64,000 nucleotides of DNA from Winogradskyella sp. PC-19 (GTDB lineage: Bacteria; Bacteroidota; Bacteroidia; Flavobacteriales; Flavobacteriaceae). Of this stretch, positions 37,196 to 50,149 are shown piece after piece (the stretch's first letter is position 1; every line of letters starts with the position of its first letter). The notes under the pieces were generated by a model. It ran no database searches and had not been told where the DNA came from. It was given only the letters and a program-made list of their open reading frames with translations. The stretch spans positions 909,145-973,144 of the forward strand of contig NZ_CP019332.1 of assembly GCF_002163855.1 (NCBI RefSeq), written 5' to 3'. The position numbers and the translations under genes were made by a program.

Positions 37196-37873
37196 TTATT
37201 GAATCCACTTTAAAGATTTTGGGTCTTCTATCTTTATCTTCTTACCAGATGTCGATATATATCCTGATTTTTTGAACAGTGACAAAATACGAATAGCAGA
37301 CTCAGTTGCAGTTCCAACTATACTAGCATAATCTTCTCTAGATATTACGATACTTAAATAACCTTCATCATCAGTACCAAAATCATCTAAAATGTAGAGT
37401 AATGTTTCTGCCATACGTTGTTTTACTGGCTTTTGTGCCATGTCAACTAAAGTATTTTCAGATTCTCTTAAATCTGATGCCATCTTTTGTAAAACATCAA
37501 AAGTGAAGTTAGTATTTTTCTGTAAATCTGTCATGATTTCACTTTTAGGAATAAAACACATTTCCATATCATTAAGTGCGGTTGCACTTAAATTCGAAAT
37601 TTCGTTAGATACTATTGAGCGTTTTCCTAATAAGCCACCTTTGACAACCAGTTTGACAACTTGGTCTTTTCCATTTTCACTAAGCTTAGATAATTTACAA
37701 ACACCATCTTTTACACAGTAAACACCGTTTATAGATTCGCCTTCTTCAAAAATAACTTGACCTTTTTTGTAAATGTTACCTGTTTTACAAGCGGATACAC
37801 GCATTAACTCATCTCTGGTTAATGCTTTTAAAGAGTTAAACTCTTTAACTATACAGGATTCACATCTACTCAT
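37196..37873 (-). CDS. FNR-type transcription regulator (Crp/Fnr family)
   Basis: This protein has 225 residues with the start at the ATG at 37873. A longer in-frame reading would overlap the divergent ccoI gene and lie upstream of the promoter. The cyclic-nucleotide-like fold is followed by a C-terminal helix-turn-helix with recognition helix TATESAIRILS (Glu191, Ile194, Arg195). Cysteines 4, 7 and 29 in the N-terminus and Cys106 (EMCFIP, matching Cys122 of E. coli FNR in MVCEIP) could hold an oxygen-sensitive iron-sulphur cluster. It stands next to the cbb3 oxidase genes, as expected for a regulator of microaerobic respiration. Confidence 0.9.
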   Translation of the reverse strand: MSRCESCIVKEFNSLKALTRDELMRVSACKTGNIYKKGQVIFEEGESINGVYCVKDGVCKLSKLSENGKDQVVKLVVKGGLLGKRSIVSNEISNLSATALNDMEMCFIPKSEIMTDLQKNTNFTFDVLQKMASDLRESENTLVDMAQKPVKQRMAETLLYILDDFGTDDEGYLSIVISREDYASIVGTATESAIRILSLFKKSGYISTSGKKIKIEDPKSLKWIQ

Positions 37874-37896: not shown

Positions 37897-37904
37897 CAAA
37901 TATA
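37897..37904 (-). promoter_or_regulatory. -7 promoter element TATATTTG of the FNR-like gene
   Basis: On the minus strand this reads TATATTTG, an exact consensus, 24 bases before the ATG. The FNR-type palindrome centred at 37919.5 then lies near -28 relative to this start, a position that would suit repression. Confidence 0.6.
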
Positions 37905-37912
37905 ATAATTAC

Positions 37913-37926
37913 ATGACAAATATCAT
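37913..37926. promoter_or_regulatory. FNR-like operator, site 1 (fnr/ccoI)
   Basis: ATGACAAATATCAT is followed by ATTTTAAA toward ccoI. The site lies between the divergent fnr-like and ccoI genes. Its centre is 36.5 bp from the G of the ccoI -7 element, the same as at sites 2 and 3. Confidence 0.8.
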
Positions 37927-37947
37927 ATTTTAAAGTGAGATGAAATG

Positions 37948-37956
37948 TAATCTTTG
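37948..37956 (+). promoter_or_regulatory. -7 promoter element TAATCTTTG of ccoI
   Basis: The element is a nine-base variant of TAnnTTTG, with one extra base. No -33 TTG is present at the usual distance, which fits a promoter that needs an activator. Confidence 0.5.
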
Positions 37957-37981
37957 TTACAGGTATAAATGAGCAAATTTT

Positions 37982-40354
37982 ATGGATAATACATCCTGTT
38001 TTCACTGTGGAGACGATTGTGGTAAACATCCAATCGAGTTTCAAGAAAAATCATTTTGTTGTAATGGTTGTAAGACTGTTTTCGAAATCTTTAGCGAAAA
38101 TGAGCTAACATGCTATTACGATTTACAAAATTCTCCTGGAGCAATCCCAAAAGAGGTCGAAGGCAAATACGACTTCTTATCTCAGGAAAATATTATTGAA
38201 AAACTTACTGAATTTAGAAGTGATACTGTAGAAATTGCTACGCTATATATTCCGCATATCCATTGTAGTTCGTGTATTTGGATATTAGAAAACCTCAACA
38301 AGTTGAATCCAAATATTACAGACTCTCAAGTAAATTTTGGAAAGAAAACTGTTAGGGTTACCTATAAATCGGAAGAGACTGACTTAAGATCAGTTGTACT
38401 CCTTTTAAGTACCATTGGTCACGAACCCTATATAAGTTTGGACGATTTTAAGTCTACAGAAAAACATATAAACCGTTCGCTAATCTACAAATTTGGTGTT
38501 GCCGGATTTGGATTTGGTAATATTATGTTTTTGTCTTTTCCTGAATACTTTGAAGTTAATGAGTATTGGTTAGAGCAATATAAACATCTTTTTAGATGGC
38601 TTATGTTTGCATTGTCTCTACCGGTGGTTTTCTACTCTGCCCAAGACTATTTTATTTCAGCATATAAAGGACTAAGAGCAAAGATTTTAAATATTGACGT
38701 GCCGATTGCTCTTGGGGTTTCGGTGTTATTTATAAGAAGTAGTATTGAAATAGCTTTTGACCTAGGTTCAGGATTTTTTGATAGTTTGGCCGGTTTAGTT
38801 TTCTTTTTATTAGTTGGAAAATTCTTTCAGCAAAAAACCTATGATTTTTTATCTTTTGAACGTGACTACAAATCATACTTTCCAATCGCTGTAACTAAAA
38901 TAAAAGACAACCAAGAAGAAACTATCCAAGTTTATGATATAAAAAAAGGTGATAGAATCCTTATTAGAAATGAAGAGCTTATACCTATGGATGGTATTTT
39001 AATTAATGGTCGTGCTAAAATTGATTATAGTTTTGTAACAGGAGAATCACAATCTGTATCCAAAAAATCTGGAGATAAACTATTTGCAGGCGGAAAACAA
39101 ACTGCTGGAGTTATAGAACTAGAAGCTCTTAAGTCTGTAGAACAAAGTTATCTCACACAGTTATGGAGTAACGATGTATTCAATAAAAATAAAGAAGACG
39201 GTTTTACCAATATAACTAATAAAATAAGTAAACACTTTACGATTGCAATTTTGGCAATAGCTTTTATAGCAACGGCATACTGGCTCTTTTTCGATGCTAG
39301 TAAAGCAATAAATGTTTTTACAGCAGTTTTAATAATTGCATGTCCATGTGCTATTGCATTATCTGCACCATTTACTTTTGGAAATCTACTACGGATTTTA
39401 GGCAAACAAAAATTCTACATTAAAAATGCGAGTGTTATCGAACAGTTAGCACAAATAGATACTATTATTTTTGACAAAACTGGTACGATAACTTCTAATA
39501 AAACTAGTACAGCCGAATATGATGGTGAGACGTTATCTGATGACGAATCGCTGGTACTAAAAAACTCTCTTCGTGGCTCTAATCATCCGCTTAGTAGAAC
39601 ACTTTATGACATATTAAAAGCAAATGATATTGTTAGTTTAGATACTTTTGAAGAGTACATAGGTCAAGGTATTGAAGCCAAACACAATGATATAAATCTT
39701 AAAATTGGCTCAGCAAATTTTGTGGGTAATACAACCGAAAAAAAAGTTTTAAACACAACTGTTCATATTAGCAGCAATAATACTTATAAGGGAAAATTCA
39801 CCTTTTATAATAGTTATAGAAAAGGTGTTTCTAAATTATTTAATCAACTAAAATCTAACTACGACCTAGTTATTTTGTCAGGAGATAATGAAGGAGAACG
39901 CGAAAATTTAAAAAAATTATTACCGTCAAAAACGAAACTAATATTTAATCAAAAACCAGAGGATAAACTCGATTATATCAAACACCATCAAAACGAAGGC
40001 GCAAAAGTCTTAATGATTGGTGATGGACTAAATGACGCTGGTGCACTAGCTCAAAGTAATGTCGGTATTGTCATTTCTGAAGATGTCAATGTCTTTTCGC
40101 CTGCTTGTGACGGGATTTTAGATGCCTCAAAATTTAAACAGTTATTCAATTACATAAGAGCTTCAAAATCAGCTATAAAAATTATAAAGTGGAGTTTTTT
40201 ACTTTCATTCTTTTATAACATAATCGGATTATATTTTGCAGTTACTGGCCAATTAGCGCCTGTCGTTGCTGCGATTTTAATGCCCTTAAGTTCTATTAGT
40301 ATCGTTGTATTTACAACGCTTGCTACTAACGTTTTGGGTAACCGATTAAAATGA
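37982..40354 (+). CDS. ccoI: cbb3 oxidase copper-exporting P-type ATPase CcoI/FixI
   Basis: This 790-residue P1B-type ATPase has a cysteine-rich N-terminal domain (CFHCGDDC, FCCNGCKTVF), a heavy-metal-associated domain with CSSC (Cys95, Cys98), membrane helices with the ion-binding CPC at residues 454-456 (IIACPCAIALS), the phosphorylation site DKTGT (Asp498) and the hinge GDGLNDAGAL. Proteins with this N-terminal domain deliver copper for cbb3 oxidase assembly rather than for copper efflux. The gene begins the cco region, is divergent from the FNR-like regulator, and has an FNR-type site in its promoter. Confidence 0.94.
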   Translation: MDNTSCFHCGDDCGKHPIEFQEKSFCCNGCKTVFEIFSENELTCYYDLQNSPGAIPKEVEGKYDFLSQENIIEKLTEFRSDTVEIATLYIPHIHCSSCIWILENLNKLNPNITDSQVNFGKKTVRVTYKSEETDLRSVVLLLSTIGHEPYISLDDFKSTEKHINRSLIYKFGVAGFGFGNIMFLSFPEYFEVNEYWLEQYKHLFRWLMFALSLPVVFYSAQDYFISAYKGLRAKILNIDVPIALGVSVLFIRSSIEIAFDLGSGFFDSLAGLVFFLLVGKFFQQKTYDFLSFERDYKSYFPIAVTKIKDNQEETIQVYDIKKGDRILIRNEELIPMDGILINGRAKIDYSFVTGESQSVSKKSGDKLFAGGKQTAGVIELEALKSVEQSYLTQLWSNDVFNKNKEDGFTNITNKISKHFTIAILAIAFIATAYWLFFDASKAINVFTAVLIIACPCAIALSAPFTFGNLLRILGKQKFYIKNASVIEQLAQIDTIIFDKTGTITSNKTSTAEYDGETLSDDESLVLKNSLRGSNHPLSRTLYDILKANDIVSLDTFEEYIGQGIEAKHNDINLKIGSANFVGNTTEKKVLNTTVHISSNNTYKGKFTFYNSYRKGVSKLFNQLKSNYDLVILSGDNEGERENLKKLLPSKTKLIFNQKPEDKLDYIKHHQNEGAKVLMIGDGLNDAGALAQSNVGIVISEDVNVFSPACDGILDASKFKQLFNYIRASKSAIKIIKWSFLLSFFYNIIGLYFAVTGQLAPVVAAILMPLSSISIVVFTTLATNVLGNRLK

Positions 40355-40370
40355 TAAAAAATGATTAGAT

Positions 40371-40384
40371 ATGATAAATGTCAT
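40371..40384. promoter_or_regulatory. FNR-like operator, site 2 (ccoS-ccoNOQP)
   Basis: ATGATAAATGTCAT is followed directly by GTTTTAAA. The palindrome centre (40377.5) is 36.5 bp from the G of the -7 element at 40414, equal to a class II activator position near -41.5 if transcription starts about 5 bases later. Confidence 0.85.
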
Positions 40385-40406
40385 GTTTTAAAAAAAGGTT
40401 CAACAG

Positions 40407-40414
40407 TATTTTTG
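40407..40414 (+). promoter_or_regulatory. -7 promoter element TATTTTTG of the cco operon
   Basis: This is an exact TAnnTTTG match, 21 bases before the ccoS ATG at 40435. There is no -33 TTG. A 7-bp inverted repeat GGTTCAA/TTGAACC (40397-40418) frames it, but I do not assign it a role. Confidence 0.7.
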
Positions 40415-40434
40415 AACCATAACTTCAAATAGGT

Positions 40435-40599
40435 ATGAGCGTTATATATATATTATTAGCAGTCAGTATTATAGTTGCTATTGTTTTTTTTGCAGTCTTT
40501 GTTTTTGCTGTAAAATCAGGACAATACGACGATAGTTATACGCCATCTGTGCGTATGCTTTTTGAAGACGAATTGGTAAAACCAGAAAAAAAGAAATAA
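40435..40599 (+). CDS. ccoS: cbb3 oxidase assembly protein CcoS
   Basis: This is a 54-residue single-pass membrane protein. It opens with MSVIYILLAVSIIVAIVFF, then has the conserved cytoplasmic tail KSGQYDDSYTPSVRMLFED, as in CcoS of other bacteria. CcoS is needed to insert cofactors (heme and copper) into the catalytic subunit. It is easy to miss because of its size, but position and motif are decisive: it lies 24 bases before ccoNO and behind the FNR-regulated promoter. Confidence 0.9.
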   Translation: MSVIYILLAVSIIVAIVFFAVFVFAVKSGQYDDSYTPSVRMLFEDELVKPEKKK

Positions 40600-40623
40600 C
40601 TAAATAAATCAATTACACTAACT

Positions 40624-42816
40624 ATGGAAATTCAACAATTTTATTACGATAACAAAATCGTTAAAAAATTCCTCTATGCGACGATACTTTGGGGAGTTGT
40701 TGGTATGCTTGTGGGTCTTATACTCGCATTTATGTTTTTATTCCCTAACATGACTGACGGTATTTCGTGGCTAAGTTTTGGACGTTTAAGACCATTACAC
40801 ACAAACGCAGTTATATTTGCCTTTGTAGGTAACGCTATTTTTGCAGGTGTCTACTACTCTACCCAACGTCTCTTAAAAGCTAGAATGTTTAGCGATATGC
40901 TAAGTAATTTTAATTTTTGGGCTTGGCAATTACTTATAGTTGGTGCAGCAATTACATTGCCTTTAGGTTATACAACATCAAAAGAATATGCAGAACTAGA
41001 ATGGCCTTTTGATATTGCTATTGCATTAATTTGGGTAGCCTTTGGTGTTAACTTAATTGGTACTATACTAAAACGTCGTCAACGTCACCTTTATGTGGCT
41101 ATTTGGTTTTACTTAGCAACTTTTGTGACAGTAGCTGTACTTCATATTTTTAATAGCTTAGAAATTCCTGTTAGTGGTCTAAAAAGTTATTCTGTATATG
41201 CTGGCGTACAAGATGCATTAGTACAATGGTGGTACGGACACAATGCGGTTGCATTCTTCTTAACAACACCATTCTTAGGTTTAATGTATTACTTTGTACC
41301 AAAAGCTGCCAATAGACCTGTATATTCTTACAGACTATCTATTGTTCACTTCTGGTCGTTAATATTTATTTATATCTGGGCTGGACCTCACCACTTATTA
41401 TACACAGCTTTACCAGAATGGGCACAACATTTAGGTGTAGCATTCTCTGTAATGCTTATCGCACCGTCTTGGGGTGGTATGATTAATGGACTGTTAACTC
41501 TACGTGGAGCTTGGGACAAAGTACGTACTGATCCCGTTTTAAAATTCATGGTAGTCGCAATTACTGGTTATGGTATGGCAACTTTTGAAGGCCCAATGCT
41601 TTCATTAAAAAATGTTAATGCAATTGCACACTTTACGGATTGGATTATTGCTCACGTACACGTAGGTGCTTTAGCATGGAATGGGTTCTTAGCCTTTGGT
41701 ATGATATACTGGCTAATACCGCGATTATTTAAAACAAAACTATACTCAATAGGCTCAGCCAATGTACATTTCTGGATTGGTACATTAGGTATCATATTAT
41801 ACGCATTACCAATGTATGTTGCTGGATTTGCACAAGCAAGTATGTGGAAACAATTTCAGCCAGACGGAACATTAGTTTATGGTAACTTCTTAGAAACTGT
41901 TACTGAAATTATGCCAATGTATTGGATGCGAGCTATTGGTGGTACACTTTACATAACCGGTATGTTAGTTCTAGTTTATAACGTTATTATGACTGTAAGA
42001 CGTGCTGAAGTTAAAGTTACTGACGAGCTTGCTGAAGCACCAGCTTTAAAGCGTGTTTCAAAACGTCGTGTCGCTGGCGAGGGTTGGCACACTTGGTTAG
42101 AACGTAAGCCAGTTCTGTTAACAGTTTATGCAACAGTTGCTATTTTAATTGGTGGTATAGTACAAATTATTCCAACACTGGTTGTCGAATCTAATATTCC
42201 AACAATTAGTAGTGTAAAGCCATACACACCTCTAGAATTAGAAGGACGAGACATTTACATCCGTGAAGGTTGTGTTGGCTGTCACTCACAAATGGTACGT
42301 CCTTTTAGAAGTGAAGTAGAGCGTTATGGCGAATACTCAAAAGCAGGAGAATATGTGTATGATCACCCATTCCTATGGGGAAGTAAACGTACAGGTCCTG
42401 ATTTACATCGTGTTGGTGGAAAATATACAGACAGTTGGCACTTAAGTCACATGTACGACCCACAGGCGATGAACGAAAAATCAATTATGCCACGTTACCA
42501 ATGGCTTATTAAAAATGAGTTAGATAAATCCATGACCGAAAAGAAAATGGAAGCTATGGTAACATTAGGTGTTCCTTACTCTGAAGAAGAAATTGCTAAC
42601 GCACAAAAATCTATGTTAGAGCAAGGTGCCAGTATAGAAAAGAATCTTTACGATGACCCTGACTTTGTAAAAAGTTATGAGGCAGATAAAGCTTCAGGTG
42701 ATTCTGATTTTGTAGAAATGAAGAATCGTGAAATTGTAGCGCTTATAGCTTATCTACAGCGTTTAGGCACAGATATAAAAGTGAAAGAAATTATTGAAGA
42801 AACTACTAAAAACTAA
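40624..42816 (+). CDS. ccoNO: cbb3-type cytochrome c oxidase, subunits I and II fused
   Basis: This is a 730-residue fusion. Residues about 1-460 are CcoN, the heme-copper catalytic subunit, with heme and copper His ligands in RPLHTNAVIF, WWYGHNAVAF, WAGPHHLLYT and IIAHVHVGALAW. From about residue 490 follows CcoO, a membrane-anchored monoheme cytochrome c with its heme site CVGCHSQMVRPF (Cys550, Cys553, His554). The enzyme is a high-affinity terminal oxidase for low oxygen. This fusion of the two subunits into one chain is common in Bacteroidota. It lies in the operon ccoS-NO-Q-P. Confidence 0.97.
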   Translation: MEIQQFYYDNKIVKKFLYATILWGVVGMLVGLILAFMFLFPNMTDGISWLSFGRLRPLHTNAVIFAFVGNAIFAGVYYSTQRLLKARMFSDMLSNFNFWAWQLLIVGAAITLPLGYTTSKEYAELEWPFDIAIALIWVAFGVNLIGTILKRRQRHLYVAIWFYLATFVTVAVLHIFNSLEIPVSGLKSYSVYAGVQDALVQWWYGHNAVAFFLTTPFLGLMYYFVPKAANRPVYSYRLSIVHFWSLIFIYIWAGPHHLLYTALPEWAQHLGVAFSVMLIAPSWGGMINGLLTLRGAWDKVRTDPVLKFMVVAITGYGMATFEGPMLSLKNVNAIAHFTDWIIAHVHVGALAWNGFLAFGMIYWLIPRLFKTKLYSIGSANVHFWIGTLGIILYALPMYVAGFAQASMWKQFQPDGTLVYGNFLETVTEIMPMYWMRAIGGTLYITGMLVLVYNVIMTVRRAEVKVTDELAEAPALKRVSKRRVAGEGWHTWLERKPVLLTVYATVAILIGGIVQIIPTLVVESNIPTISSVKPYTPLELEGRDIYIREGCVGCHSQMVRPFRSEVERYGEYSKAGEYVYDHPFLWGSKRTGPDLHRVGGKYTDSWHLSHMYDPQAMNEKSIMPRYQWLIKNELDKSMTEKKMEAMVTLGVPYSEEEIANAQKSMLEQGASIEKNLYDDPDFVKSYEADKASGDSDFVEMKNREIVALIAYLQRLGTDIKVKEIIEETTKN

Positions 42817-42822
42817 CGTATT

Positions 42823-43008
42823 ATGTTCAAATTTATAAAAGGCCATCTCGAAACTATCACAGGTATAGAAATATACCCTATGATATCGCTACTCATATTT
42901 TTTATCTTTTTTGTAACACTCTTTTATTGGGTATTTACAGCAAAGAAAGACTACATCACTAAGGTGAGTAATCTACCTTTAGATAACCAAAACGAAACAT
43001 TATCATGA
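42823..43008 (+). CDS. ccoQ: cbb3 oxidase small subunit CcoQ
   Basis: This is a 61-residue single-span membrane protein (ISLLIFFIFFVTLFYWVF) with a short polar tail. Its position between ccoNO and ccoP and its size fit CcoQ/FixQ, a small subunit that stabilises the oxidase. Its stop overlaps the ccoP start (ATGA). Confidence 0.85.
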   Translation: MFKFIKGHLETITGIEIYPMISLLIFFIFFVTLFYWVFTAKKDYITKVSNLPLDNQNETLS

Positions 43009-43985
43009 GAAAGTTAATCCCTTCATACATAAGAATACCAGCTATATTTTTTATTATCGCTGGTCTGACAGAATATTTTGTAGAATCAGGAGACCAACCT
43101 GCATTCATGGAAAAACCAGTAGTATTGGTATTTTTATTACTCGTTTTGGTCATATTGATTGCAATTGAAAGTATCGTGTCCGCAATGGAAAATGTGCTTT
43201 TTCAAAGTTTAGATGAAGAAGCCAAAGCAAGATATCTAGCAAAACAAAAAGAACCTTCTAAACTCGTATTATGGTTAAAAAATACTTACACGAAACTTGT
43301 AGGTACAAAACCTATAGAAGAAGAAGGCGAAATTATACTTGATCATAATTACGATGGCATAAAAGAGCTAGATAACAACTTACCGCCATGGTGGGTTTAT
43401 AGCTTTTACATTACCATAATTTTTGGTATTATATATATGGTACGATATCATGTATTAAATGCAGATGACCAATTTGTAGAATTCGAAATCGAATATGCAG
43501 AAGCCCAGCGTGCCATTGAAGAATACAAAAAGAACGCAAAAGACTTGGTAGGTGTAAATACAGTAGAATTATTAGCTGATGCATCAGATTTAAAAGCTGG
43601 AGAAGCAATTTTTGTTGCCAAATGTGCAGTTTGTCATAAAGCCGATGGTGGTGGTGGAATTGGTCCTAATTTAACGGATAAACATTGGATACTTGGCGGT
43701 GGCATCAAAAATGTATTTAAAACAATTTCTGAAGGTGGTCGTGACGGAAAAGGTATGGTATCATGGAGAACTGAAGGTCTAAAACCATTTGAAATGGCAC
43801 AGGTAGCTAGTTATGTCTTACAATTTGAAGGCACAAGTCCTGCAGAACCTAAAGCTGCTGAGGGTGAAATCTGGGTTGATGAAACAGCAGCAGAAGAAGC
43901 TCCTAGTACTGAAAGTGAAGAAACTACTGAAGATACAGAAGCAGATGTTATTACTGAAGGTAAAACCATTGCATCTAATAAATAA
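43005..43985 (+). CDS. ccoP: cbb3 oxidase cytochrome c subunit CcoP (monoheme)
   Basis: This 326-residue protein has three hydrophobic helices. The CcoP N-terminal motif LPPWWVYSFYITIIFGIIY is at about residues 126-144. One cytochrome c heme site, CAVCH (Cys207, Cys210, His211), is followed by GPNLTDKHW. Proteobacterial CcoP has two heme sites; only one CXXCH is visible here. The last 50 residues are rich in Glu, Ala and Thr, a low-complexity acidic tail. The start overlaps the end of ccoQ by 4 bases, so translation is coupled. Confidence 0.92.
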   Translation: MRKLIPSYIRIPAIFFIIAGLTEYFVESGDQPAFMEKPVVLVFLLLVLVILIAIESIVSAMENVLFQSLDEEAKARYLAKQKEPSKLVLWLKNTYTKLVGTKPIEEEGEIILDHNYDGIKELDNNLPPWWVYSFYITIIFGIIYMVRYHVLNADDQFVEFEIEYAEAQRAIEEYKKNAKDLVGVNTVELLADASDLKAGEAIFVAKCAVCHKADGGGGIGPNLTDKHWILGGGIKNVFKTISEGGRDGKGMVSWRTEGLKPFEMAQVASYVLQFEGTSPAEPKAAEGEIWVDETAAEEAPSTESEETTEDTEADVITEGKTIASNK

Positions 43986-43993
43986 AGTAAAAA

Positions 43994-45418
43994 ATGGAGA
44001 CCCCAAGTAACGAAGTCTTTAGAGATTCTATTGGAACCATCGGTGAAGATGGCAAACGTAGTTGGGTGTTTCCAAAAAAACCGTCAGGTCCGTTTTGGGA
44101 AAAACGAAAACTAGTAAGTTATATTTTACTTGCATTTTTATTTGCTGCACCATTTGTAAAAATTAACGGCAATCAGTTTTTGATGTTTAATGTTTTGGAG
44201 CGTCGTTTCAATATTTTTAGTTTTCCGTTTTGGCCTCAAGATTTTCATTTGTTTGTAATCTCAATGATAATTTTAGTCATTTTTATTACATTTTTCACTG
44301 TTGGATTTGGACGTATTTTCTGTGGTTGGGTTTGCCCACAAACCATTTTTATGGAAATGGTGTTTCGCAGAATTGAATTCTGGATTGATGGTGACAGAAA
44401 CAAACAACGTAAGTTAGCTAAGCAAAAATGGGATGCCGAAAAGATAAAAAAGCGTGTCTTTAAATGGTTCATTTTCTTAGTGATTTCCTTTTTAATTGCC
44501 AATGTGTTTTTAGCTTATTTAATTAGTGGAGACAAACTACTAAGCTATATTTCGGAAGGTCCATTACAACACTCAAGCACCTTAATTTCATTACTAATAT
44601 TTACTGCTGTATTTTATTTTGTTTTTGCTTGGTTTAGAGAGCAAGTTTGCATTATTGCCTGTCCATATGGACGCTTACAAGGTGTCTTATTAGATACAAA
44701 ATCTATAGTTGTCGCTTATGACTACAAACGTGGTGAAGCAGAAAATGGCAGAAAGTCTTTCCGAAAAAATGAAGATAGACAAGCACTAGGTCATGGTGAT
44801 TGTATTGATTGTATGCAATGTGTCCATGTCTGCCCAACAGGAATTGATATCCGAAACGGTACCCAATTAGAGTGTGTAAACTGTACCGCTTGTATTGATG
44901 AGTGTGATACCGTAATGGAAAAAATAAATCTTCCAAAGGGATTAATTCGTTATGCTAGCGAAGAAAATATTGAGAACAAAACAAAGTTTAAGATAACAGC
45001 TAGAATGAAGGGTTATATCGCAGTCCTTACAATTTTAACTGGTATTTTATTTGGTATGCTAATGCTTCGAAATGATGTAGAAGCAAATATATTGAGATTA
45101 CCAGGACAACTATATGAGCAAAAGGGAGAAAATATTATTAGTAATGTCTACACCTATAAATTGGTCAATAAGACATCACAAGATATCGAAAACATAAGCT
45201 TTAAAATTAGAAATAAAGAAGGCGAAATTAAATTAGTCTCTAATTCAGATAGTTTTAGCTTAAAAGCACAAGACATTGCAGAAGGCACACTTTTTATAGA
45301 ATTAAACAAAAGTGATTTGTCTGGTGATAAAAACAAATTAACAATAGACGTTTATAGCAACAAAAAACTTATTGAAACTACTAGTATAGGTTTCTTAGGT
45401 CCAAGAAGTTACAATTAA
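43994..45418 (+). CDS. ccoG: cbb3 oxidase accessory iron-sulphur protein CcoG
   Basis: This 474-residue polytopic membrane protein has two 4Fe-4S clusters in a ferredoxin-like segment: CIDCMQCVHVC and CVNCTACIDEC. Additional cysteine motifs CGWVCPQ and CIIACPYGR lie in the membrane part, and the C-terminal third is an IgFixG-like domain. CcoG/FixG reduces copper during oxidase assembly. The gene follows ccoP by 8 bases and is followed by ccoH after 10 bases. Confidence 0.93.
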   Translation: METPSNEVFRDSIGTIGEDGKRSWVFPKKPSGPFWEKRKLVSYILLAFLFAAPFVKINGNQFLMFNVLERRFNIFSFPFWPQDFHLFVISMIILVIFITFFTVGFGRIFCGWVCPQTIFMEMVFRRIEFWIDGDRNKQRKLAKQKWDAEKIKKRVFKWFIFLVISFLIANVFLAYLISGDKLLSYISEGPLQHSSTLISLLIFTAVFYFVFAWFREQVCIIACPYGRLQGVLLDTKSIVVAYDYKRGEAENGRKSFRKNEDRQALGHGDCIDCMQCVHVCPTGIDIRNGTQLECVNCTACIDECDTVMEKINLPKGLIRYASEENIENKTKFKITARMKGYIAVLTILTGILFGMLMLRNDVEANILRLPGQLYEQKGENIISNVYTYKLVNKTSQDIENISFKIRNKEGEIKLVSNSDSFSLKAQDIAEGTLFIELNKSDLSGDKNKLTIDVYSNKKLIETTSIGFLGPRSYN

Positions 45419-45428
45419 AAATAGAATT

Positions 45429-45875
45429 ATGAAAATCAACTGGGGAACAGCAATAGTCATAGCATTCGTGGCATTTATTTCTTTTATCATGTACTTTGTT
45501 ATAAGCATGAGTACTGACAAAAAGTTTGACCATGATTTGGTAACTGAAGATTATTATCAACAAGAATTAAAATACCAGGATGATATTAACAAGGTCGAAA
45601 ATGCAAAAAAACTAAATCAAAACATAGAATTTAAGAAAACTAATGAAGGCATTATTTTAAGTTTTCCCAAAGACCTAAATACCAATAATATAAAAGGAAA
45701 AGTGTTCCTATATAGACCATCTAATAAGCAACTAGATTTTGAGATGCCTATCTCATTGTCTAATCACAATTTGCTCATACCTGACAATAGTTTGTTAGAT
45801 GGTCGTTGGAACATTAAAATTGATTGGTCTTATAAGGCTGATGAATTTATGTTTAAAAAAGAATTTAATTACTAA
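45429..45875 (+). CDS. ccoH: FixH/CcoH family cbb3 assembly protein
   Basis: This 148-residue protein has an N-terminal membrane anchor (IVIAFVAFISFIMYFVI) and the FixH-type motif HDLVTEDYYQQELKYQDDIN, then a periplasmic beta-rich part. FixH/CcoH is needed for stable oxidase assembly with CcoI and CcoS. It lies 10 bases after ccoG and 5 bases before the DsbD/UreH-like gene. Confidence 0.88.
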   Translation: MKINWGTAIVIAFVAFISFIMYFVISMSTDKKFDHDLVTEDYYQQELKYQDDINKVENAKKLNQNIEFKKTNEGIILSFPKDLNTNNIKGKVFLYRPSNKQLDFEMPISLSNHNLLIPDNSLLDGRWNIKIDWSYKADEFMFKKEFNY

Positions 45876-45880
45876 AGATA

Positions 45881-46582
45881 ATGTTAGCAACAGCTTTTGC
45901 ATTAGGCCTTTTAGGAAGTTTACATTGCGTTGGTATGTGTGGGCCTATTGCCTTTATGTTACCTGTTGATCGTTCTAATTCTTTTAAAAAAGTTACGCAA
46001 ATTGCTATTTACCATTTTGGGCGGTTATTAGCTTATAGTCTTATTGGTTTGGTATTTGGTATTGTTGGCAAAAGCCTTTATATTTTTGGTTTACAGCAAC
46101 AATTATCAATAATTATAGGAATATTAATGATTGTTTTAGTCATAATACCATACAAGACTATTGGTAAATACAATTTATCAAAACCTCTACATCGTCTCAT
46201 TTCAAAGGTGAAATCGTCACTAGGAAAAGCTCTAAAAAAGAAAACTGCCGACACCTTTTTAACCATAGGTTTTTTAAATGGATTTCTCCCATGTGGTTTG
46301 GTATACATGGCAGTTTTTGGAGCTATTGCTTCAGGAAGTTTGGCTAAAGGAAGCTTATATATGTTGCTATTTGGACTGGGAACTATTCCGCTAATGACTA
46401 CGGCAATTTACATTGGTAAATTCTTAAATAGTTCAGTAAAACAACACATTCAAAAAGCAATTCCAATATTTGTTGTAGTGATTGGTGCATTATTCATTGT
46501 AAGAGGTTTAGGGCTTGGTATTCCTTATATTTCACCAGAACCGGTTGTAGAAATGGTTACAGGTAATATTGATTGTCATTAA
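45881..46582 (+). CDS. DsbD/UreH-like membrane protein (sulfite exporter TauE/SafE annotation group)
   Basis: This 233-residue protein has six hydrophobic helices and the motif GLLGSLHCVGMCGPIAFML near the N-terminus, with a second conserved stretch FLNGFLPCGLVYMAVFGAIA. These match the DsbD_2/UreH-like (PF13386-type) family. In cco operons this protein is often paired with CcoI and thought to handle metal or reductant for cytochrome assembly. The common label sulfite exporter is not supported by the gene context. It is the last gene of the cco run. Confidence 0.85.
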   Translation: MLATAFALGLLGSLHCVGMCGPIAFMLPVDRSNSFKKVTQIAIYHFGRLLAYSLIGLVFGIVGKSLYIFGLQQQLSIIIGILMIVLVIIPYKTIGKYNLSKPLHRLISKVKSSLGKALKKKTADTFLTIGFLNGFLPCGLVYMAVFGAIASGSLAKGSLYMLLFGLGTIPLMTTAIYIGKFLNSSVKQHIQKAIPIFVVVIGALFIVRGLGLGIPYISPEPVVEMVTGNIDCH

Positions 46583-46621
46583 AAATTTTAATTTTAGAGT
46601 TATATTCTAAATTAAAAATTG

Positions 46622-47101
46622 ATGCAACAAAATCTGACAAATACATCACCAAAACATATTATAAAAACGCTAACTATTATTCACGCTGCTTTTATAGCTG
46701 GCCCTTTTATTTTTAGCTTAGTTATTCTTTTTATCTCATCAGAAATATCAATATTCAATACCGATAATATCCCAGCAGCTTATTATATCATTCCTTTTGT
46801 TGCTCTAATAATTATATATGCAGGTTTAAGGTTTTTTAGAAATCAATTATCTAAAATTGACAAACAGTCACCGCTAAATCAAAAGTTAGTCAATTATCAA
46901 ACAGCATTTATTATAAAATGTGCATCTATTGAAGCTCCTGCATTTTTATGCATCATGCTAACTATATTATCTGGAGAAACTGTTTTCTTAATAATAACCT
47001 GGTCTATTTTATTGTTCTTATATACAATAAGACCAAAAAAAGAAAAGGTTATTGCAGACTTAAGTCTAAGCTTTGATGAACGTAAATTATTGAATGCATA
47101 A
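46622..47101 (+). CDS. small four-helix membrane protein of unknown function
   Basis: I do not recognise the family. It has 159 residues and four hydrophobic segments (about 20-40, 55-75, 98-115 and 120-137), with a short polar C-terminus. I use the ATG at 46622, because the TTG at 46619 only adds one residue. It lies 39 bases after the DsbD/UreH-like gene and before a strong terminator, so it may share the cco transcript; its function could then be in respiration or membrane assembly, but there is no direct sign. Confidence 0.75.
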   Translation: MQQNLTNTSPKHIIKTLTIIHAAFIAGPFIFSLVILFISSEISIFNTDNIPAAYYIIPFVALIIIYAGLRFFRNQLSKIDKQSPLNQKLVNYQTAFIIKCASIEAPAFLCIMLTILSGETVFLIITWSILLFLYTIRPKKEKVIADLSLSFDERKLLNA

Positions 47102-47140
47102 AAAAACACCAACGTTATTAAACGCTGGTGTTTTTTTTTA
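47101..47140 (+). terminator. intrinsic terminator
   Basis: A hairpin AAAACACCAACGTT/AACGCTGGTGTTTT with one mismatch is followed by a long T-run. It ends the run of genes that begins with ccoS. The minus-strand A-run also allows some termination of uspA transcripts. Confidence 0.85.
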
Positions 47141-47180
47141 CTTAAATAATTGCTAAATAATTATTTACCCATTTTAGGTA

Positions 47181-48014
47181 TTAAATTTTAAATGTCATTA
47201 CTGGTAATGTTGAGTGGTTAGCAATATCCTCAGAAATACTACCTTCAAAGAAATGTGCTAAACCTTTTCTACCATGAGTAGCAACGGCTATTAAATCTGC
47301 GCCAATGTTATTAGCAAAATTAAGAATACCTTGCTCTACAGAATAATCAGATACTACATGTACATCAGATAAAGACTCAAGATTACCATCCGCTTTTTTC
47401 AAAAAAGAAGATACCAATCTGTCAATTTCAATAGAACTTTTAAAGCTTGTATCTGGCGTATTTACATAAATCAAATTCATAGTGGCATCTAACTTATTAA
47501 AAACAGCCTTAGCTTTTAAATAAGCTTCTACTGCTTCCTCAGAGAAGTCACTAGCAAATATCGCTGTATCAAACTCTACTAAAATAGGATTCTGTTTAAC
47601 GATAAGTACTGGTATATCAGCGTGTCTAACTACTTTTTCTGCATTCGAGCCAATAAGCACCTCTTTAACGCCACTTGCACCATGAGATCCCATAACGATC
47701 AAGTCTACTTGTTGCTCATCAACTATATCATTGATCTCTTTAAAAACCTTAAAGTGTTTAATTACTGGTGTAATCTCAACACCTTCCAAGAATGGACGGT
47801 CTAGAAATTTACTCATCTTTTGTTCTGCTAGTTTTAAATAAAAAACAGCTTCTTCTCCAATAGAACTTCTACTTGCTGTATAGACAGCGTTTGATAGCTC
47901 TAGCATGTGTAATACTATAAGTTCTCCATTATGTTTTTTTGCAATTGAAGCAGCAGTTTCTAAAGCATATTCAGAATGTTCAGAAAAATCTATGGGTACA
48001 ATAATTTTTTTCAT
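47181..48014 (-). CDS. universal stress protein with two Usp domains
   Basis: This 277-residue protein is a tandem of two UspA domains. Each half shows the nucleotide-binding pattern G-2x-G-9x-G(S): GSHGASGVKEVLIGS in the first and THGRKGLAHFFEGS in the second. Such proteins are induced in growth arrest or low oxygen. It follows hemN by 43 bases on the same strand, with no terminator between, so it probably belongs to the same FNR-controlled transcript. Confidence 0.93.
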   Translation of the reverse strand: MKKIIVPIDFSEHSEYALETAASIAKKHNGELIVLHMLELSNAVYTASRSSIGEEAVFYLKLAEQKMSKFLDRPFLEGVEITPVIKHFKVFKEINDIVDEQQVDLIVMGSHGASGVKEVLIGSNAEKVVRHADIPVLIVKQNPILVEFDTAIFASDFSEEAVEAYLKAKAVFNKLDATMNLIYVNTPDTSFKSSIEIDRLVSSFLKKADGNLESLSDVHVVSDYSVEQGILNFANNIGADLIAVATHGRKGLAHFFEGSISEDIANHSTLPVMTFKI

Positions 48015-48057
48015 GATTTATATTTTTTTAATTTATACTAGATTGATTTCTAAAATA

Positions 48058-49422
48058 CTAAATTGTCATAGAAAACAGTTGTGTTTCTGGCTTTTTTCGT
48101 TGTAATAACAAATCAAAAGCCATACAAATATTTCTTATAAAAGGTTTTCCTTTTTCTGTGACCTGTAATCCTTCACTTTCGAAAAATAACAAACTATCAT
48201 TTTCAAACTCCCTAAGTTTTATAATCACTTCAGGAAGCTCATTAAATTTTGTGTTTGAAGTATTCCAATATGTTTTAAATTGACACATAAGATTCAAAAC
48301 ATGACTTCTAATAATCAAGTCTTCGTCATTAAGGCCATGACCTCTGTATACCGGAATAATATTAGCATCTAACAAATGATAATACTCTTCAATAGATTTT
48401 ACATTTTGAGCAAATGCATACCAACTATCACTAATAGCAGAAACACCAAGTCCAATCATTCCTTTAGTTTTTGATGCTGTATATCCCATGAAATTACGGT
48501 GAAGTTTACCGCTCTTCATCACAGTATATAGACTGTCAGACGTTAAAGCAAAATGATCCATTCCAATTTCTTTATAACCTATAGTCTCTAGCAGTCTTTT
48601 ACCTATATCGTATTGTTGGCGCTTGCCTTCTCCTGATGGTAAGTCTTCACTTTTGTATCCACGCTGACCATTACCTTTAATCCATGGCACGTGGGCATAA
48701 CTGTAAAATGCAATTCGGTCTGGTGTTAATAGATTTGTTTTGGCAATAGTCTCAATTACATCAGCTTCGGTCTGAAATGGTAATCCAAAAATAATATCAT
48801 GACCGACAGATGTATAACCAATTTTTCTGGCTAACTCAGTTACTTTTTTTACATTTTCAAAAGGCTGAATACGATTTATAGCCTTCTGAACTTTAAGATT
48901 ATAATCTTGTACACCAAAACTAACACGTCTAAATCCTAAATCGAATAGCGTTTTTAGGTGTGCTTCTGTGGTATTATTTGGATGGCCTTCAAAACTAAAC
49001 TCATAGTTTTCCGCCAAGTCTGAAGTTAATAATAATTCAGAGATTAGAAATTTTAAATTTTCAGGCGAAAAAAATGTCGGCGTACCTCCACCAAGATGTA
49101 ATTCCTTAATTCTTGGTCTTCCTCCTAAAACATCTCTATAAAGTTTCCATTCTTTTAAAAGTGCTTTTATATAAGGTAACTCTACATCATGTCTTTTTGT
49201 AACACGCTTATTACATCCACAAAATGTACACATACTTTCGCAAAACGGTAAATGCAAATACAAGCTTAGACCTTCGGTAGTATTACTTTGTAAAAAAGTC
49301 TGTCTTAGAGATGATTTCCATTTGTTTAACGAAAATGAATTAACATCCCAATATGGCACCGTCGGATAGCTTGTATATCTCGGTCCTGCCACGTTATATT
49401 TATTTACAAGTGAATTGCACAT
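48058..49422 (-). CDS. hemN: oxygen-independent coproporphyrinogen III dehydrogenase HemN
   Basis: This is a radical-SAM enzyme of about 454 residues. The cluster motif CESMCTFC (Cys61, Cys65 and Cys68 in this numbering) is followed by GC. Other HemN landmarks are RYTSYPTVPYW near the start and LHLGGGTPTFFSP. It makes protoporphyrinogen for heme when oxygen is short. The start is set at the ATG at 49422: the upstream in-frame TTG at 49443 falls within the -7 element of the promoter. It heads a hemN-uspA unit behind an FNR-like operator. Confidence 0.95.
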   Translation of the reverse strand: MCNSLVNKYNVAGPRYTSYPTVPYWDVNSFSLNKWKSSLRQTFLQSNTTEGLSLYLHLPFCESMCTFCGCNKRVTKRHDVELPYIKALLKEWKLYRDVLGGRPRIKELHLGGGTPTFFSPENLKFLISELLLTSDLAENYEFSFEGHPNNTTEAHLKTLFDLGFRRVSFGVQDYNLKVQKAINRIQPFENVKKVTELARKIGYTSVGHDIIFGLPFQTEADVIETIAKTNLLTPDRIAFYSYAHVPWIKGNGQRGYKSEDLPSGEGKRQQYDIGKRLLETIGYKEIGMDHFALTSDSLYTVMKSGKLHRNFMGYTASKTKGMIGLGVSAISDSWYAFAQNVKSIEEYYHLLDANIIPVYRGHGLNDEDLIIRSHVLNLMCQFKTYWNTSNTKFNELPEVIIKLREFENDSLLFFESEGLQVTEKGKPFIRNICMAFDLLLQRKKPETQLFSMTI

Positions 49423-49440
49423 ACCTATTTTATTGATACT

Positions 49441-49448
49441 CAAAATTA
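49441..49448 (-). promoter_or_regulatory. -7 promoter element TAATTTTG of hemN
   Basis: On the minus strand this is an exact TAnnTTTG match. Transcription would start near 49435, leaving about 13 bases before the ATG. No -33 TTG is seen; an FNR-like site takes its place. Confidence 0.7.
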
Positions 49449-49470
49449 CTAGTGTAACTTTGTTTAAAAT

Positions 49471-49484
49471 ATGATATTTATCAT
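49471..49484. promoter_or_regulatory. FNR-like operator, site 3 (hemN-uspA)
   Basis: Read toward hemN the sequence is ATGATAAATATCAT, then ATTTTAAA. Both half sites are perfect (ATGAT/ATCAT). The centre (49477.5) is 36.5 bp from the G of the hemN -7 element. Confidence 0.88.
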
Positions 49485-49567: not shown

Positions 49568-50149
49568 ATGAAAAATTTAAAATTAATAGCCTTTCTTATA
49601 TCCTTAACCTTTGTATTCGCTTGTAAAAACGAGAAAAAGACTGAAGAAGTCATTGAAGTAGAAGAAATTGAAGAAATAAAAACACCAGAAAAAGAACAGT
49701 CTGGCATGGTTATGACTTTATCTCCTAAAAGTGGCAGTACAGTCAACGGAACTGTAAATTTCATATACGAAAACGGAACTGTAAGTATGACTGCTAATAT
49801 GACTGGTTTAACGGAAGGAACGCATGCCATTCACATTCATGATAAAGCAGATTGTTCGTCTGATGATGGGAAATCAACTGGAGGTCACTGGAACCCAACA
49901 GCACAACCTCATGGTGAATGGGGAGACGAAAAAGGGTATCACAAAGGTGATATAGGAAATTTTGAAGTTGGTACAGATGGTATTGGTAAGGTTCAGTTTA
50001 AGACTGACCAGTGGTGTATTGGATGCGGAGACCCTAACAAAGATATATCAGGAAAAGCAATAATTGTTCACCAAGGTACTGATGATTTCGTATCCCAACC
50101 AAGTGGAGCAGCTGGTAAACGTATCAGTTGTGCTGGAATTATTGAATAA
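49568..50149 (+). CDS. sodC: Cu/Zn superoxide dismutase lipoprotein
   Basis: This 193-residue protein has a lipoprotein signal (LISLTFVFACK) and an acidic linker (EEVIEVEEIEEIK). The metal ligands are recognisable in GTHAIHIHDKADC, STGGHWNPTAQPHGEWGDE, HKGDIGNF and IVHQGTDDF, with the active-site arginine in AGKRISCAG. It removes superoxide outside the cytoplasm. It is divergent from hemN and ends before a terminator. Next to an oxygen-responsive locus, its role in microaerobic life is plausible; control by the shared site 3 is possible but not proved. Confidence 0.93.
   Translation: MKNLKLIAFLISLTFVFACKNEKKTEEVIEVEEIEEIKTPEKEQSGMVMTLSPKSGSTVNGTVNFIYENGTVSMTANMTGLTEGTHAIHIHDKADCSSDDGKSTGGHWNPTAQPHGEWGDEKGYHKGDIGNFEVGTDGIGKVQFKTDQWCIGCGDPNKDISGKAIIVHQGTDDFVSQPSGAAGKRISCAGIIE

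Follow-up and report, generated by a model that had tools for sequence, protein, structure and literature searches.

A palindrome at fixed spacing in low-oxygen promoters of Flavobacteriaceae and the CRP/FNR-family proteins that may read it

In Escherichia coli, FNR acts at class II promoters through the palindrome TTGATN4ATCAA, positioned near -41.5, and OmpW is one of its targets. How transcription is activated in Bacteroidota is little understood, their -33/-7 promoters being unlike the E. coli type. Among published systems, Rhizobium leguminosarum is described in passages of PMC7888657 as having two pathways, hFixL-FxkR-FixK and FnrN, which share an anaerobox at fixNOQP, with FnrN regulating itself in both directions. 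For Flavobacterium psychrophilum, passages of PMC9723704 report that the cbb3 oxidase and haem biosynthesis genes are raised under oxygen limitation. A different view of CRP/FNR proteins in Bacteroidota comes from PMC8510549, where the homologues of a Flavobacteriales MAG are predicted to respond to carbon sources. An FNR site for Bacteroidota is named in none of the titles and abstract openings listed by our searches of the open-licence literature.

Three promoters with one spacing

Within the 64 kb stretch of DNA analysed here, called the window throughout, one palindrome recurs as ATGACAAATATCAT on the ccoI side (37913..37926, plus strand; centre 37919.5), as ATGATAAATGTCAT 5' of ccoS-NOQP (40371..40384, plus strand) and as ATGATAAATATCAT 5' of hemN-usp (49471..49484, minus strand), each copy being kept in orthologues. 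The first precedes a gene for a ccoI-type heavy-metal P-type ATPase of 790 aa (37982..40354, plus strand), recognised by profile scan and named from its locus context, and the second precedes ccoS, ccoNO, a ccoQ-like gene, ccoP and ccoG (40435..45418, plus strand), named from family knowledge and conserved order. The third stands before hemN (48058..49422, minus strand), encoding oxygen-independent coproporphyrinogen III oxidase (TIGR00538 at 426 bits, cut-off 325), with a universal stress protein gene downstream on the same strand (47181..48014, minus strand), to which Usp models matched below their cut-offs.

The corresponding -7 elements are AATCTTTG for ccoI (37949..37956, plus strand; predicted start 37961), which agrees with the orthologue consensus, TATTTTTG for ccoS-NOQP (40407..40414, plus strand; predicted start 40419) and TAATTTTG for hemN-usp (49441..49448, minus strand; predicted start 49436). 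Re-reading of the sequence bore out the original prediction as regards the palindrome coordinates, the RTTTTAAA adjoining all three palindromes and the G of the -7 element at 37956, 40414 and 49441, the distance from palindrome centre to this G being 36.5 bp in all three promoters. The ccoI element departs from TAnnTTTG at its first base, where T is absent; among ccoI promoters with TTTG at -7, the window counted, the first base is T in 3/38 and the next base is A in 36/38.

ATGAYN4RTCAT has three exact matches in the window against 0.27 expected, and a shared site at ccoI, ccoS-NOQP and hemN-usp with one exact spacing is confirmed as real. Since the Flavobacterium sigma-A -7 box has been placed at -12 to -5 with G at -5 (passages of PMC9723704), the 36.5 bp would put the palindrome centre at -41.5, a position that follows only with the numbering of this one species. 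The predicted CRP/FNR-family element, with a probable class II geometry, is supported.

The site class across Flavobacteriaceae

A scan of 60 Flavobacteriaceae genomes, a sample outside which the window's own genome lies, returned 318 sites of the form MTGAYN4RTCAT-N22-TANNTTTG and 2 with a reversed control. When gaps of 7-37 were allowed in 20 genomes (179 matches in total, 150 of them listed; 16 in the reversed control), gap 22 accounted for 102 of the 150 matches listed, gap 21 for 9 and gap 23 for 10. The half-site is short and AT-rich, as would suit palindromes arising by chance in AT-rich intergenic DNA, but at least three matches occurred in 0/100 shuffles of the window, and the paucity of control matches, the sharp spacing peak and the retention of sites in orthologues likewise speak against chance, to which we give a negligible probability.

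Loss of motif or spacing from orthologous promoters had been set as the refutation of the prediction, and this test favoured it, G lying exactly +36.5 from the centre at most of these promoters: 37/45 for ccoI, 38/58 for ccoS (47 with TTTA counted) and 18/18 for hemN. Genes predicted to lie under such sites include those for Usp, HemN, c-type cytochromes, NirK, cbb3 oxidase, Pta, PEPCK and OmpW, which fit low-oxygen metabolism and lend support to the shared low-oxygen regulon originally envisaged. Of the 54 target clusters, 38 are singletons, and no Pfam match was obtained for 10 of the 39 cluster representatives scanned.

The internal features of the site required revision. A variant outer base was rightly foreseen; its A/T form needs correction, the clear asymmetry being A or C distally and T proximally, and the outer pair T..A occurs in only 10/147 gap-22 matches (14 genomes). 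The central AAAT keeps its orientation at the three window sites but not in general, and as a rule it was rejected: among the 102 gap-22 sites listed, AAAT was found in 11, AAAA in 11 and TTTT, ATTT and AATT in 9 each. TTGAYN4RTCAA was likewise rejected as the FNR site of the family: it matched 63 times across 20 genomes (23 times in the reversed control), with 15 of these 63 at gap 22. Several of its matches precede ribB-like, TolC-like and old-yellow-enzyme-like genes (names assigned by eye), and because of these downstream genes its matches probably belong to another paralogue.

The RTTTTAAA block is represented by ATTTTAAA at ccoI (37927..37934, plus strand; inferred -34 to -27, covering the -33 position), GTTTTAAA at ccoS-NOQP (40385..40392, plus strand) and ATTTTAAA again at hemN-usp (49463..49470, minus strand). 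Exact at these three promoters, it fails as a general rule, following only 3/113 sites fetched genome-wide. The original prediction treated it as an extra downstream block, that is, a separate protein-binding element, and positional enrichment is indeed detectable, with TTTT directly past the first spacer base at 29/113 fetched sites (0-13 at other offsets) and RTTTTAAA with at most one mismatch at 16/113 (0-5 at slid offsets). However, besides the rarity of exact copies, the block coincides with the -33 position, at which a -35-type element is poor or absent (TTG within -36 to -29 at 9/113 fetched sites), and it has a weak mirror upstream of the palindrome, AAA at the mirrored distance in 23/113 sites against 1-17 at other upstream offsets. 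A degenerate -33 contact together with A/T flanks accounts for the block, so no new protein is needed and a separate element appears improbable; from these alignments RTTTTAAA is best described as a weak, partial positional block.

Candidate regulators of the site

The FNR-like regulator of the window (37196..37873, minus strand; 225 aa), recognised by profile scan and orthologue alignment, has matches above cut-off for both a cNMP_binding sensor domain (PF00027, 62.7 bits) and a Crp-type HTH (HTH_Crp_2, PF13545, 50.5 bits). Of the 11 models listed the best was the curated Fnr model NF008365, but its 69.2 bits fell short of its cut-off of 228. C4, C7, C53 and C106 are invariant in 37/37 FNR orthologues (window counted). 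Aligned with E. coli FNR (cysteines 20, 23, 29 and 122), these include the equivalents of C20, C23 and C122, whereas the position-29 equivalent is N, S or T and the third invariant cysteine is displaced, to C53. The invariance of four cysteines suggests an oxygen-labile Fe-S cluster. The recognition helix in the window is TESAIR, and the pattern ExxIR is found in all 37 FNR orthologues (window counted) in place of the ExxSR that goes with TTGATN4ATCAA.

The same pattern occurs in 18/18 members of a second group, hybrids of a receiver and a CRP module whose genes adjoin that of a PAS kinase. All four hybrids scanned contain Response_reg, cNMP_binding and HTH_Crp_2, and the four adjoining kinases contain PAS, HisKA and HATPase, a FixL-FixJ-like arrangement. 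Genomes with FNR, the hybrid or both have sites in 47/48 cases, those with neither in 5/12, and the mean number of sites per genome is 1.0 with neither, 4.26 with FNR only, 6.55 with the hybrid only and 9.7 with both (60 Flavobacteriaceae genomes). Whether a genome has FNR did not by itself predict its density of sites, either across all 60 genomes (p=0.06) or when only genomes of 2.5 Mb or more were counted (p=0.71).

Individual cases also weigh against the mechanism proposed below. Genome G047 has an FNR orthologue and zero sites, genome G069 has neither regulator and six sites, and Myroides (L041) has an FNR orthologue and lacks the cco site. At L055 the ccoS palindromes are kept in a small genome without a relative at E up to 1e-30.

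Eight family loci in genomes without an FNR orthologue keep the cco site, each genome having a hybrid-length relative, and FNR is therefore not required for the site. FNR as sole reader was rejected as a general statement, since genomes without it keep sites and many of these have the hybrid. Could the hybrid, or another paralogue, be the main reader and the FNR-like protein beside ccoI a minor one? Those eight loci favour this, as do the sites present in 11/11 hybrid-only genomes at the higher mean and the gap-22 site flanked by the hybrid gene and a Usp-like gene (by eye) in 10/18 fetched loci; yet 22/23 FNR-only genomes also have sites, fnr and ccoI diverge from the very site in 34/34 loci examined, and the window sites carry outer A, the dominant form in FNR-only genomes (59/71 sites against 14/36 in hybrid-only genomes, among the matches listed and with kinship ignored). 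We consider such a division of roles unlikely. The FNR-like protein stands as the likeliest activator at the window, as predicted, but not as the only candidate, because the hybrid has a matching helix and tracks the sites; across the family the hybrid is probably a reader of this class of site, with FNR or without it.

Proposed mechanism and comparison with known systems

We regard it as very probable that the three palindromes are sites for a CRP/FNR-family activator at -41.5 (class II) on Bacteroidota sigma-A promoters, with the FNR-like protein of the window as the likeliest reader. At low oxygen this protein would dimerise, bind MTGAYN4RTCAT and contact sigma region 4 and the alpha-CTD, recruitment by the activator replacing the -33 TTG, and copper loading (ccoI), cbb3 oxidase (ccoS-NOQP) and anaerobic haem synthesis (hemN-usp) would rise together. 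The hybrid beside the PAS kinase, with the same recognition-helix pattern, probably acts on the same site class, alone or with FNR.

The promoter of the divergent fnr-like gene, whose -7 element is TATATTTG (37897..37904, minus strand), overlaps the same ccoI palindrome. With 22.5 bp between the G of this element and the palindrome centre, the site would be at -27.5 for fnr, where it probably represses this gene. Over 34 loci, the fnr-ccoI palindrome has autorepression geometry in 17 and self-activation geometry in 4, varying among genera.

A broader reading, to which we assign even chances, is a two-input low-oxygen switch in Flavobacteriaceae, in which a four-cysteine FNR with a new ligand spacing and a PAS-kinase-fed receiver-CRP fusion would both act through a single class II element whose outer base is asymmetric. 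The hybrid would hold the cco promoters where FNR is absent, the fnr-ccoI palindrome would alternate between autorepression and self-activation geometry among genera, and the contrast of distal A or C with proximal T would arise where the proximal half-site runs into the missing -33 box. For one class of Bacteroidota activator, the results provide a spacing rule that is exact and family-wide, together with a predicted regulon for low-oxygen respiration that is open to testing, and a natural experiment in which two sensors apparently act on one site, in genomes with one, both or neither.

With E. coli FNR the window protein has in common the CRP/FNR fold, the N-terminal CxxC and the C122-equivalent cysteine, and the sites have in common a dyad with four bases between its TGAY half-sites, the -41.5 geometry (inferred here) and OmpW among the predicted targets. 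The two systems differ in the outer bases (T...A there, A/C...T here), in the helix (ExxSR there, ExxIR here), in C29, which is without counterpart here, C53 being invariant instead, and in the promoter, which here has the Bacteroidota -7 TAnnTTTG and no -33 TTG. F. psychrophilum has cbb3 and haem genes in its low-oxygen response and the same -7 element; "FNR" has 0 occurrences in the main text of PMC9723704, and its passages name no site or regulator for the response. From R. leguminosarum, as presented in passages of PMC7888657, our proposal differs in site sequence and phylum, in the union of receiver and CRP module in one protein (REC-cNMP-HTH_Crp) adjoining the kinase, and in that the kinase here is only a candidate oxygen sensor, but common to both would be the convergence of two oxygen inputs, one through a cysteine-cluster FNR and one through a kinase, on one palindrome driving cbb3 oxidase.

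Promoter geometry in the window

The palindrome ATGAYN4RTCAT occurs exactly three times in the window, with 0.27 occurrences expected and three reached in none of 100 shuffles, and the motif search placed it where the original prediction had it: upstream of ccoI (37913..37926, plus strand), ccoS-NOQP (40371..40384, plus) and hemN-usp (49471..49484, minus). The predicted distance of exactly 36.5 bp from palindrome centre to the G of the -7 element is present at all three. That element had been given as TAnnTTTG, which does not hold at ccoI, where it reads AATCTTTG, with the first T absent. Across the ccoI element (37949-37956 in the window) and its orthologues, the A and TTTG are kept, the first T being found in 3 of 38 promoters.

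According to the published start-site map of Flavobacterium psychrophilum, the sigma-A box TAnnTTTG lies at -12 to -5 (PMC9723704), which puts the -7 G at -5 and the palindrome centre at -41.5, the class II position; transcription starts are predicted at 37961, 40419 and 49436. The same paper, in whose main text the term FNR is absent, reports that under oxygen limitation cbb3 oxidase is strongly up and haem biosynthesis up (PMC9723704). Divergent from hemN lies a gene (49568-50149) whose product, by eye, resembles a Cu-Zn superoxide dismutase lipoprotein.

Conservation, spacing and predicted targets

For orthologue comparison, 80 loci were gathered with CcoNO, and the best site was scored in the first 30 bp of each gene and the 260 bp before it; with the window included, a site with at most one mismatch was obtained for 47/61 ccoI, 60/74 ccoS and 19/30 hemN regions, although one-mismatch sites in distant outgroups can be due to chance. 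The expectation that orthologous promoters share the spacing was upheld: once the window was set aside and only sites retaining TGA..TCA in full were counted, the G stood exactly at +36.5 in 37/45 ccoI, 38/58 ccoS (47 if TTTA is counted) and 18/18 hemN promoters. Full TANNTTTG occupies this position at just three of the 45 ccoI sites, because the first T is missing.

A scan of 20 genomes, five from beyond the neighbourhood of the Flavobacteriaceae, let the gap between palindrome and -7 element vary from 7 to 37 bases. It found 179 matches versus 16 with the reversed control, and among the 150 matches listed the gap was 22, equivalent to 36.5 bp, in 102, 21 in nine and 23 in 10. The pattern MTGAYN4RTCAT-N22-TANNTTTG matched 318 times in 60 Flavobacteriaceae genomes versus two reversed-pattern matches, with at least one match in 52 of them; in a phylum-wide draw 45/198 genomes matched (reversed control, two hits).

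A second palindrome class, TTGAYN4RTCAA, likewise peaks at gap 22 (15 of 63), and the -41.5 rule may extend to other CRP/FNR paralogues. Such gap-22 sites were seen at loci L217, L219, L223, L224, L226 and L228, ahead of genes that by eye are ribB-like, TolC-like and old-yellow-enzyme-like. Four GTGAYN4RTCAC sites, with a CRP-like outer base, lie at gap 22 from TAnnTTTG in genomes G001, G002 and G016.

Round the listed sites 116 loci were fetched, of which L081, L083 and L105 were dropped for having other gaps, leaving 113 sites picked non-randomly from the listed gap-22 matches. A first open frame was called downstream of 110, falling into 54 clusters (38 singletons). Named by cluster representative or likeness to window genes, these 110 frames include Usp (19), HemN (8), small c-type cytochromes (7), CcoN (5) and copper nitrite reductase-cytochrome c (5), with Pta, pyridine-nucleotide oxidoreductase, OmpW, NADH dehydrogenase chain 3, PEPCK and PPDK as smaller groups or singles. 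A Pfam scan of 39 of the 54 representatives left 10 without a match at 1e-5.

Form of the site and the FNR-like regulator

With every outer base permitted at gap 22, 14 genomes gave 147 matches (six reversed-control hits), the outer pair being A..T in 68, C..T in 34, T..A in 10 and A..G in five; the imbalance of C..T versus A..G (p=2e-6, sign test) indicates that A or C is accepted at the promoter-distal end, whereas T is favoured at the proximal one. The proposed orientation of a central AAAT was not borne out as a general rule, the centre being A/T-rich and roughly symmetric. RTTTTAAA follows the palindrome at all three window sites, but fails as a general rule (exact in 3/113). The T block is nevertheless real, if partial: T occupies +8.5 to +11.5 in 71, 63, 56 and 55% of the 113 sites, and TTTT stands there in 29, versus 0-13 at other spacer offsets. 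AAA at the mirrored upstream place (23/113, versus 1-17 at other upstream offsets) forms a weak mirror, and TTG within -36 to -29 was found at 9/113 sites. In our reading, the T block combines what is left of the -33 contact with the site's own A/T flank.

The FNR-like regulator (37196..37873, minus; 225 residues) carries cNMP_binding and HTH_Crp_2 domains, and the curated Fnr model is the best of 11 listed NCBIfam matches, yet at 69 bits against a cut-off of 228. Among 37 orthologues sharing 42% identity or more, the window's protein counted, C4, C7, C53 and C106 never vary, and the four recur in relatives further off, namely from Roseivirga, from Pontibacter and from one Bacteroidetes MAG (L068). 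C4, C7 and C106 align with C20, C23 and C122 of E. coli FNR, whose C29 lacks a counterpart, C53 being extra. E. coli FNR uses a helix serine near the outer base; since the recognition helix is TES-x-IR here and VET-I-SR in FNR, isoleucine takes that serine's place, a substitution that fits the changed outer base and proves nothing.

The regulator gene's own -7, TATATTTG (37904-37897, minus), has its G 22.5 bp from the ccoI palindrome. Where a ccoI site is accompanied by a divergent fnr (34 loci, window included), this G lies at 22.5-24.5 bp in 17, at 36.5 bp in four and elsewhere in nine, TAnnTTTG not being found in four. In the first arrangement the palindrome covers the -33 region of fnr, so that autorepression is predicted at those 17 loci, and the 36.5-bp geometry predicts self-activation at the four.

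A proposed second reader and known parallels

FNR orthologues (E ≤1e-90) were found in 37/60 Flavobacteriaceae genomes; sites also occur in those without one, and site density could not be predicted from FNR presence alone (p=0.06 over 60 genomes, p=0.71 over those of at least 2.5 Mb). At eight family loci from genomes without an FNR orthologue, at least one cco site is kept, each genome holding a relative of hybrid length. The hybrid, the candidate second reader, is a protein of about 350 residues that combines receiver, cNMP-binding and Crp-HTH domains and adjoins a PAS histidine kinase (four pairs scanned). All 18 fetched copies have the helix E-S/T-x-I-R and none the FNR cysteine set; at 10/18 loci, all fetched for holding the hybrid, the stretch separating the hybrid gene from a Usp-like gene contains a gap-22 site. 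The kinase stands beside the hybrid at L197-L214, with runs of Usp-like genes after it at several loci. The pair is a candidate one-step FixL-FixK-like system.

The hybrid (E ≤1e-45) was found in 25/60 genomes, though with at most 34 candidates scored per genome some absences may be misses; for nine of the 12 'neither' genomes the scoring covered every candidate. Mean sites per genome were 1.0 with neither (12), 4.26 with FNR only (23), 6.55 with hybrid only (11) and 9.71 with both (14), the last arrangement also being that of the close relative G001 (Winogradskyella, L001). Sites occur in 47/48 genomes with either or both versus 5/12 with neither (Fisher p=1.5e-5, confounded by size and kinship), a difference that remains at 2.2 Mb or more (p=0.006, 47 versus 6 genomes, kinship confounded). 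There are counter-examples: G047 and Myroides L041 have FNR and lack, respectively, any site and a cco site; G069 has six sites with neither protein, and L055 has ccoS palindromes with no relative at E up to 1e-30. Among listed sites, outer C was present in 12/71 from 16 FNR-only genomes and 22/36 from seven hybrid-only genomes, so the two readers may differ in outer-base preference; the contrast could also come from shared ancestry.

Most likely, a putative cluster in FNR would be stabilised as oxygen falls and, judging from the geometry, the dimer would bind at -41.5 and bring polymerase to promoters that lack a -33 box. Copper loading, the oxidase and anaerobic haem synthesis would then increase jointly, which for the oxidase and haem is in line with expression reported in a related genus (PMC9723704). 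Among titles and abstract openings of open-licence literature, no description of a Bacteroidota FNR site was found. We assign these elements to a probable class II CRP/FNR system that differs from the known ones in its site, its cysteine spacing, its type of promoter and a proposed second reader. Its nearest working parallel, in the portion of the literature covered, comes from Rhizobium leguminosarum, in which a single anaerobox at fixNOQP serves both hFixL-FxkR-FixK and FnrN (PMC7888657).
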